A stretch of DNA of 64,000 nucleotides from Cytobacillus oceanisediminis (GTDB taxonomy: Bacteria > Bacillota > Bacilli > Bacillales > Cytobacillaceae): the NCBI RefSeq assembly GCF_004366035.1, contig NZ_SOEE01000002.1:496001-560000 (forward strand), written 5' to 3'. The position numbers and the translations under genes were made by a program. Position 1 is the first letter of the stretch; the number at the start of each line of letters is the position of its first letter. This document shows positions 10,195 to 12,573 of this stretch, piece by piece. The notes below the pieces were generated by a model that saw nothing but the letters and a program-made list of their open reading frames with translations, searched no databases and had not been told where the DNA came from.

Positions 10195-11598
10195 TTAAAT
10201 AGCAGTTAATGCTTTTATTATGATGTCCTCTTCATTTGCAGTTACCGCCCGCAGATCAATCAGTATTTCTTCTTTATGTATCCTCACTATTATGGAAGGA
10301 GTACAATCAATCCTTAACTGGCGGCCAATATGTTCCGCTGAATAATGCCGGTGCTTTAAAACGGCAATCCAGGATGGCAGTTCAACATCGGGCATTGTGC
10401 CTCCCCCAACTTGCCCTGTGCTTTCTCTCATAGAGCATTCATAATCCTTCGCTGCTGCTTTTAGTCTGTGAAGAAATTGTGCTGTTCTCGTTTCGAGTTC
10501 ACCACTGGTCGTCAATACATCATGGACTACCGGAATATTATTAAGCCCCGCCTCCCCTTTTAAGTAATCAATAAGCGTGCCTTCGAGCGCTGCAATTGTC
10601 ATTTTATCAACTCGAAGAACCCGGGCAAGCTGGTGTTTTTTCAGTTTCTCGATTAAGTCCTTTCTCCCGGCAATAATGCCTGCCTGCGGGCCGCCTAAAA
10701 GCTTGTCCCCGCTAAAAGAAACGATATCTGCCCCCATTTTTATCACATCGCTTATGGCTGGCTCATTTCCGATTCCTTTGCTTTTAAAATCAAACAGTGC
10801 ACCGCTGCCCAAGTCTTCATAGAATATGATGTTTTTTTCTTTGGATAACTGGGCAAGTTCGTCAGTTCCAACTTCTTTGGTGAAACCAATGATTTTAAAA
10901 TTACTCGTATGTACCTTCATAATCATGGCTGTATCTTCATTGATGACTTGTTTATAATCTTCTAAGTGGGTTTTATTCGTTGTTCCTACTTCAACAAGCT
11001 TCGCACCGCTCTCTTCCATTATGCTTGATACCCTGAATGAGCCTCCGATTTCAACAAGCTGACCGCGGGAAACTATTACTTCTTTTTCTTCAGCAAGAGC
11101 TTTTAGGATGATATAAACGGCAGCAGCATTATTGTTAACTGCCATCGCTGCTTCTGCTCCTGTCAGGTCTTTGACCAGGCTTTCCAGGTGACTATGCCTG
11201 GATCCCCGTGCTCCTTCACCCAAATTATATTCCAAATTGGAATAGTTCATGGCAATTTCAAGCATATGTTCGGCTGCTGATTTGCTTAAACGTGCCCTGC
11301 CAAGATTAGTGTGAAGAATAGTGCCAGTGGCATTGATAACCCTTTTTAGTGTATATCCATACCGAACAGTGATTGCCTCTTCGGCTTTTTTAAATATAGC
11401 TTCCGTAAACTTTTCCGTACCTGGCTCCTCACCCGTCCAATTCCCGCCGAGAATGTTATCCCTGATTTCAGAAATAACCTCTTTTAAAATATTCGTTGTA
11501 TGTATAAAGTCAAGTCCATACTGTTTCATTAAATAAGTAAAACGCCGGTCTTTTTGCAGTTCATGAACCGGTAAAATATTTCTGACTGTACTTTTCAT
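10195..11598 (-). CDS. selA: L-seryl-tRNA(Sec) selenium transferase
   Basis: A 467-aa PLP enzyme of full SelA length. It converts seryl-tRNA(Sec) to selenocysteyl-tRNA(Sec) using selenophosphate. Visible features are the N-terminal helical tRNA-binding domain, RVINATGTILHTNLGRA, GARGSRHSHLE, and the PLP-lysine loop SFSGDKLLGGPQAG (lysine near residue 297). GGAGGG lies before ATG 11598. The usual partners selB, selC and selD are not in the window, so they must be elsewhere if the pathway works. A SelW-like gene with an in-frame TGA lies 740 bases upstream in the same orientation, beyond the opposing cotM gene. Confidence 0.96.
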   Translation of the reverse strand: MKSTVRNILPVHELQKDRRFTYLMKQYGLDFIHTTNILKEVISEIRDNILGGNWTGEEPGTEKFTEAIFKKAEEAITVRYGYTLKRVINATGTILHTNLGRARLSKSAAEHMLEIAMNYSNLEYNLGEGARGSRHSHLESLVKDLTGAEAAMAVNNNAAAVYIILKALAEEKEVIVSRGQLVEIGGSFRVSSIMEESGAKLVEVGTTNKTHLEDYKQVINEDTAMIMKVHTSNFKIIGFTKEVGTDELAQLSKEKNIIFYEDLGSGALFDFKSKGIGNEPAISDVIKMGADIVSFSGDKLLGGPQAGIIAGRKDLIEKLKKHQLARVLRVDKMTIAALEGTLIDYLKGEAGLNNIPVVHDVLTTSGELETRTAQFLHRLKAAAKDYECSMRESTGQVGGGTMPDVELPSWIAVLKHRHYSAEHIGRQLRIDCTPSIIVRIHKEEILIDLRAVTANEEDIIIKALTAI

Positions 11599-11667: not shown

Positions 11668-11691
11668 GATTGAAACAAGGGGGTTTTGAAA

Positions 11692-12093
11692 TTGAACAAA
11701 AAGGAAGATTTCCATCCGTTTAATTTGGATGAATTGGAAAAATGGATGGAGGATTATTACCTGGACCCGCTTTCATCGTATTTGGATCAAATTACTTTTC
11801 GCATCGACTTATATGATACGGAAGCGGAAATTATCGTTGAGGCGCTTTTAACAGGATGCGTTTCAAAAGATGTAACCGTTTCCTTAAAGGAAAACACTGT
11901 GATCATTAAAGCGGTTAAAATAGATGAAACTGACCCAATTCGCTGCGGCCAGCCATGTATGCGGAAGGTAAAACTGCCTTTTTCAGTTATTAAAAACAAG
12001 GTAAGTGCAGATTTTTCCAATGAGATATTAGAGATTTTTATAAATAAAAATGAAGCTGGGCCAGGATGCGATAGAGATATCAGCATCAGTTGA
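11692..12093 (+). CDS. cotM: Spore outer coat protein CotM (Hsp20-like)
   Basis: A 133-aa protein with an alpha-crystallin/Hsp20-type beta-sandwich. The pattern FNLDELEKWMEDYYLDPL, then FRIDLYDTEAEIIVEALL and a VTVSLKENTVII strand resembles B. subtilis CotM, a mother-cell spore outer-coat protein. The frame starts at TTG 11686, but TTG 11692 is better spaced from AGGGGG (8 bases). It lies between selA and the selenoprotein gene in the opposite orientation. In B. subtilis cotM sits next to sspP, so selA appears inserted between them. An upstream sigma-K-like promoter supports late sporulation expression. Confidence 0.82.
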   Translation: MNKKEDFHPFNLDELEKWMEDYYLDPLSSYLDQITFRIDLYDTEAEIIVEALLTGCVSKDVTVSLKENTVIIKAVKIDETDPIRCGQPCMRKVKLPFSVIKNKVSADFSNEILEIFINKNEAGPGCDRDISIS

Positions 12094-12304: not shown

Positions 12305-12335
12305 AAAAAACCTCCTCCCTAGGGAGAAGGTTTGG
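12305..12335 (-). terminator. Terminator of the selenoprotein gene
   Basis: On the minus strand AAACCTTCTCCCT pairs with AGGGAGGAGGTTT (13 bp, one mismatch) and is followed by a T6 run, 5 bases after the stop codon. Confidence 0.85.
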
Positions 12336-12339
12336 CAGT

Positions 12340-12573
12340 TTATCCCTGCATCTTTTCAATAATTTCTTTGGTTTTAGGAAAAATGCCAGTATCGAGCTTA
12401 GAATAAAGCTTTTCTCCATTTACTGTCACTTCAAAAGCTCCGCCTTTACTTGGAACCAGTTCCATTTTTGAAATCTCAGAGCGAAAATGTGTAAAAAGTT
12501 CTTCCGCGAAACTCGCGGCTTTTGGTGCGTAGTTTCACATCATGCAAAATTCAACAGTTACTTCATATGCCAT
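12340..12573 (-). CDS. SelW-like (Rdx family) selenoprotein with in-frame TGA
   Basis: A 77-aa Rdx/SelT-SelW-SelH family protein that reads through one in-frame TGA (12535-12537) as selenocysteine at codon 13. It starts MAYEVTVEFCMMU, giving the redox motif C10-x-x-U13 right after the first beta strand, where the family has CxxC or CxxU. Downstream, KAASFAEELFTHF and the GGAFEV strand fit the thioredoxin-like Rdx fold, and the frame ends in IIEKMQG-TAA. Without recoding, the gene would be a 12-aa stub. selA in the same interval and a hairpin 16 bases after the TGA support recoding. The likely role is a cytoplasmic thiol/selenol oxidoreductase; the substrate is unknown. TAA and a terminator follow. 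Confidence 0.9.
12494..12523 (-). promoter_or_regulatory. bSECIS-like hairpin after the selenocysteine TGA
   Basis: On the minus strand, 16 bases after the TGA, CCGCG-AGTTT-CGCGG forms a perfect 5-bp stem with a 5-base loop (12504-12518). Flanking AAAAG and CTTTT can extend it with a 3' bulge. Bacterial SECIS elements sit about 16-37 bases after the UGA inside the coding sequence, as here. SelB binding is inference. Confidence 0.6.

Follow-up and report, generated by a model that had tools for sequence, protein, structure and literature searches.

The window (the whole stretch of 64,000 nucleotides that was analysed) carries on its minus strand a short open reading frame, 12340..12573, which starts with an ATG at 12573, ends with a TAA at 12342-12340 and encodes 77 amino acids when an in-frame TGA is read as selenocysteine (Sec, U13). 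This TGA (codon 13, 12535..12537, minus strand) is the predicted Sec codon and the sole internal stop; the frame was re-read and no other stop was found, as a preliminary description of the locus had reported. Near the N terminus, residues 10-13 form the CxxU/C redox motif C10-M-M-U13. The same description had proposed comparison with the SelT/SelW/SelH families, and in profile searches the read-through protein scored above the cut-offs of both Pfam Rdx (PF10262; E 1.9e-22, 79.7 bits, cut-off 22.6) and NCBIfam CXXU_selWTH (TIGR02174; 66 bits, cut-off 34.2). A genome-wide Rdx search returned one place, the SelW ORF, with one TGA inside. Eight solved chains matched SelW by sequence, the best being 2fa8 (E 3.3e-12, residues 5-75), and the matched Rdx proteins include 3dex, 2obk, 2ojl, 2oka and 2p0g. 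In the three alignments shown (2fa8, 3dex and 2obk) a Cys of a CTQC-type motif stands opposite the Sec of the window protein, which places the TGA at the second redox residue of the Rdx motif. These are matches by sequence, and the thioredoxin-like fold of SelW is putative.

The selenocysteine machinery and the neighbourhood of SelW

Downstream of SelW and on the same strand lies selA (10195..11598, minus strand; TIGR00474, 547.9 bits, cut-off 267.9), with 741 bases between its start at 11598 and the SelW stop, close to the 740 bases estimated before. The two are separated by an HSP20-like gene in the opposed orientation (11686..12093, plus strand; PF00011, 26.5 bits, cut-off 20.8), which is probably an outsider to the selenium system, and by a terminator-like hairpin with a T run 3' of the SelW stop (12311..12330, minus strand). 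For the stretch scanned, 1.1 terminator-like sites were expected and three were found; two of them overlap at 12311..12330, and the remaining one is the SECIS hairpin described below, read on the opposite strand. Because the opposed gene and the terminator-like site lie between SelW and selA, a single transcript spanning both is unlikely in the window. The promoter scan gave four sites where 3.6 were expected and thus no evidence of a promoter, and a search of the window with Rfam at gathering thresholds returned zero matches.

The genes selB, selC and selD, which the preliminary description had suggested looking for and whose absence it had named as a sign of a pseudogene, are all present in the genome above curated cut-offs. 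Both selB (375.2 bits, cut-off 242.25) and selD (419.4 bits, cut-off 125) are located on the same contig as SelW, and selC (60.3 bits, gathering threshold 47) is on another contig. The selC search gave 20 further matches below the cut-off; as 5 of 14 control genomes also had a match above it, it matters that ARAGORN, independently of this search, called a tRNA-Sec with the anticodon tca. The selD gene itself contains one TGA, in the context GG-U-GCK, followed by a hairpin. Behind selD (L122:4368-6037, G000:C2) come genes for a PhnD-like binding protein and a permease-looking ORF. Against TIGR04553, a putative selenate transporter family with a cut-off of 250, the binding protein reached 175.4 bits and so fell short; a role of the pair in selenium uptake is possible.

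Conservation of the TGA codon and of the hairpin behind it

A scan of named genomes yielded 29 related loci, 54-96% identical, from Cytobacillus, Robertmurraya, Mesobacillus, Aquibacillus, Halalkalibacter and others, with Cytobacillus oceanisediminis and C. firmus among the closest. Codon 13 is TGA in 28 of them and TGT in one (L051, Cytobacillus eiseniae, motif CMQC), and no other stop interrupts any of the 29 frames. Relatives with neither Cys nor Sec at this position, which had been named beforehand as an indication of a pseudogene, were therefore absent from this set (Sec 28, Cys 1). The TGA remained constant while neighbouring third positions drifted. The median dN/dS against the window for codons 14-75 was 0.104, calculated from 25 of the 29 comparisons; one locus was dropped for a dS of 0 (L024) and three because dS was not computable (L041, L044 and L051). 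The frame downstream of the TGA is under purifying selection, and this constraint together with the constancy of the TGA puts the SelW frame beyond chance.

The hairpin behind the TGA, CCGCG-AGUUU-CGCGG (12504..12518, minus strand), occupies bases 17 to 31 after the codon, and its loop lies 21-22 nt past the TGA. The stem has five pairs, or six when an A-U pair closes a GUU loop; the calculated energy was -9.3 kcal/mol when folded with the next bases and -8.0 kcal/mol for the closed hairpin alone. The bacterial SECIS model, as outlined in PMC13188914, specifies 3-9 nt for the loop, 4-16 bp for the stem, a G within the first two loop positions, a distance of 16-37 nt from the UGA and a minimum free energy of at most -7.5 kcal/mol. 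The SelW hairpin lies within all of these limits (a 3-nt GUU loop, 6 bp, G first, 22 nt, -9.3 kcal/mol).

In the named-genome set all 29 TGA sequences (the window included) pair at all five positions, and the Cys homologue breaks two. The set was widened by 58 survey loci, namely the 30 best-scored of 163 family matches and 28 of 60 class matches, to a total of 88 sequences, of which 79 were distinct (76 with TGA, 3 with Cys). Over the 76 distinct TGA sequences 379 of 380 cells were paired. Third codon positions face each other in two of the five pairs. One of them, pair 21-27, showed compensatory changes with GC in 50 sequences, CG in 20, AT in 5 and TA in 1. Slid controls reached at most 224 of 380 paired cells and none of 2,000 shuffles, which ignore kinship, reached 379. 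The three distinct Cys homologues had 2, 2 and 5 of the five pairs broken, and a G was present in the first two loop positions of 76/76 TGA sequences. By a rule of our own setting, 11 of the 2,566 TGA triplets in the window, that of SelW included, are followed by a SECIS-like hairpin of at least this strength (-8.0 kcal/mol). In a longer fold taking in the TGA a different pairing has the minimum energy, and this fold exceeds shuffles in stability by a small margin (z -1.73; 14 of 200 shuffles equally good), so that covariation, ahead of global energy, is the main ground for the hairpin.

Were the ORF a decaying gene in which a Cys codon had mutated to TGA, it might look much as it does, since a young pseudogene would show just such a lone in-frame stop. 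However, the same TGA recurs in relatives down to 54% identity, and its conservation together with that of the downstream frame already refutes this explanation in our view. The hairpin, moreover, is kept by compensatory changes in the TGA carriers and broken in the three Cys homologues. The chance of decay by mutation to TGA is practically negligible, and taken more broadly a pseudogene or a sequencing error is very unlikely.

Co-occurrence with selA and other TGA-containing genes

Of the 193 genomes surveyed in the same taxonomic family, 160 had an Rdx match, and the gene type is widespread among these bacilli. Among the 150 of 163 family matches that were listed, 149 had exactly one TGA and one (G032) had none. 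A selA match (E <= 1e-60) was present in 172 family genomes and a selB match (E <= 1e-70) in 170. All 160 Rdx genomes had selA and 157 had selB; the other three are drafts with a completeness of 66%, 66% and 94%. Conversely, all 21 genomes without selA were also without Rdx. These counts include negatives beyond the lists (13, 1 and 3), which were identified from the gaps in the numbering of the positives. The co-occurrence of Rdx and selA had a Fisher p of 6e-20, uncorrected for kinship, and one genus accounted for 13 of the 21 double negatives. Of the 33 Rdx-less genomes 12 keep selA, which makes the link one-way. In nine of these 12 the retained Sec machinery can be accounted for by a formate dehydrogenase that contains one TGA; none was seen in the other three (G008, G049 and G098). 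The family genome whose Rdx carries Cys (G032) also has a TGA formate dehydrogenase. Class-wide, Rdx was found in 56 of 398 sampled genomes, with 60 matches of which 55 had one TGA, two had two and three had none.

The family entry for Rdx in PMC13188914 gives CxxU, one Sec and PF10262. Two class matches (L119 from G339:C30 and L120 from G360:C12) are second Rdx paralogues with two TGA codons, in which a U-T-G-U motif replaces CxxU; they were found in the two genomes of one genus, among four genomes of that family examined. A second SelW-like copy with the motif C-T-A-U and its own SECIS-like hairpin was observed in three genomes of one genus (L053, L054 and L055, from G022, G019 and G024), and a selA match was absent from the 3.2-kb loci of these copies.

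UGA readthrough is known in bacilli, so that near-cognate suppression or decoding as Trp could in principle stand in for Sec at codon 13. Against this, the genome has a complete Sec gene set and Rdx without selA was not found among the 193 genomes. Further, the non-TGA homologues read, like the three aligned solved chains, have Cys at the place of codon 13, and the SECIS stem covaries. We regard suppression or Trp as highly improbable, with Sec the predicted residue at this codon.

The linkage of SelW with selA was also considered with respect to function. In 29/29 named-genome loci selA follows SelW in the same direction of transcription, with a gap (match to match) of 72-1063 nt that is below 200 nt in 10 of them. 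This arrangement and the co-absence of Rdx with selA would be explained if SelW served selenium handling, for instance as a sensor or partner of SelA that responds to selenium, and were not a general redox enzyme. However, the selA-positive genomes without Rdx, most of them with the TGA formate dehydrogenase, indicate that SelA does not need SelW. In the window the terminator-like site and the opposed hsp20-like gene separate the two, and the linkage may merely reflect transfer or co-regulation. A dedicated role beside SelA is thus a rather doubtful assignment.

In the window's genome all eight formate dehydrogenase-like matches were without an in-frame stop, which had led to the idea that SelW is the sole Sec client besides SelD. 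This was ruled out by the AhpC-TSA search, in which 4 of 19 matches contained one TGA each. These peroxiredoxin/thioredoxin-like genes (L131, G000:C6:270173-270559; L132, G000:C21:19240-19578; L133, G000:C2:104733-105077; L134, G000:C6:254154-254435) have the TGA in the contexts FTFV-U-PTE, WASW-U-RC, TTYT-U-GLC and HLG-U-PVC, presumably the catalytic Cys site of such proteins. When read through, all four scored above the Pfam AhpC-TSA cut-off. In NCBIfam, three of the proteins had their best match among the redox families PrxU, WAxxUGC and SelL-related, the fourth matched AhpC best, and none of these matches reached the respective cut-off. A hairpin of -6.5 kcal/mol or lower stands behind each of the six TGA genes (SelW, SelD and these four) under a rule set after the genes had been seen, and at most 25 of the 2,566 TGA triplets in the window reach this value (25 at -6). 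Scored as the hairpin alone, two of the four AhpC-TSA-like cases (-7.1 and -6.5 kcal/mol) fall short of -7.5, and their 40-base folds give -9.3 and -8.0 kcal/mol. The genome thus has six predicted selenoproteins so far. Another AhpC-TSA-like match, with TAG and TAA inside (L135, G000:C35:7451-7870), is probably a decayed gene.

In Cytobacillus spongiae, selD, SelW and selA occur together (L124, NZ_CP089998.1, 365650-375868) on a 690-kb record labelled plasmid. Its SelW has the same hairpin as that of the window, and the record was the one from Bacillaceae among the 20 of 29 plasmid-record matches listed in a search for annotated SelW. The expectation that automatic annotation would miss SelW is borne out there to the extent that the TGA SelW has no listed CDS, in one record whose gene table is incomplete; the TGA selD of this record does have a listed CDS. 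One of the four AhpC-TSA-like genes, the peroxiredoxin, has a TGA relative in the same C. spongiae record that is annotated as one CDS through the TGA. For the other three, TGA relatives were not found in the plasmid records, where one had distant matches and two had none.

Proposed decoding, relation to known selenoproteins and meaning

The ORF, its TGA and the conservation of this codon, the SECIS covariation, the full Sec gene set and the selA linkage can all be read directly from the DNA, and they are best explained by a functional SelW selenoprotein gene. The frame 12573-12340 on the minus strand is almost certainly such a gene, encoding a small selenoprotein of the SelW-like/Rdx family in which UGA codon 13 is read as Sec. 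For Sec insertion at this codon we infer the following course: the hairpin starting at the 17th base past the UGA would recruit SelB carrying Sec-tRNA(Sec), itself made with selC, SelA and SelD, and the ribosome would decode the UGA as Sec. This decoding step corresponds to established bacterial Sec insertion as described in PMC13188914. By analogy with the family, C-M-M-U would act as a thiol-selenol redox centre, in which the selenol of U13 may attack an oxidised substrate or peroxide and C10 may resolve the intermediate as a selenenylsulphide, which a cellular thiol system would then reduce; the partners and the substrate are likewise putative.

SelW-like selenoproteins with CxxU are already known, and the window gene adds a member. 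It shares the family (PF10262), the CxxU, the single Sec and a SECIS right after the UGA with the bacterial SelW-like proteins and shows nothing different in kind. A C. jejuni SelW is named in PMC1242214. Compared with SelTWH of Campylobacter (NF041051), the window protein aligns along the whole profile with 80.9 bits, narrowly under the equivalog cut-off of 88. The match to the mammalian protein deposited as Selenoprotein W (2npb) is weak (E 0.025). In eukaryotes, according to the account in PMC13188914, the SECIS is located in the 3' UTR, whereas that of the window SelW lies in the coding frame.

The spread observed here, with Rdx matches in 160 of the 193 genomes from a single bacillus family, is wider than published counts of SelW-like selenoproteins, which were 10 proteins in 2006 (PMC1794560) and 35 organisms in 2016 (PMC5029168). 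For Bacillales, three selenoproteins of any family were counted in 2006 (PMC1794560), and SelW-like proteins top the family table of an ocean metagenome survey (PMC2398784). A search of the main text of accessible papers gave none that deals with SelW of Cytobacillus or Bacillaceae; supplementary tables may list Bacillales SelW. Annotation easily loses short Sec genes, and SelW genes were completely missed in some annotations of Epsilonproteobacteria, as reported in PMC4607533.

With six predicted selenoproteins, the window's genome reaches the number used in PMC5029168 to call an organism selenoprotein-rich. A bolder interpretation would see in SelW a core, selA-linked selenoprotein of a bacillus family with a largely unrecognised peroxiredoxin/thioredoxin-like selenoproteome, one that acts in close cooperation with SelA when selenium is handled or sensed and not as a generic antioxidant; this we hold to be unlikely. 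Bacilli with a linked SelW-selA pair would offer a convenient system for asking what the role of bacterial SelW is.
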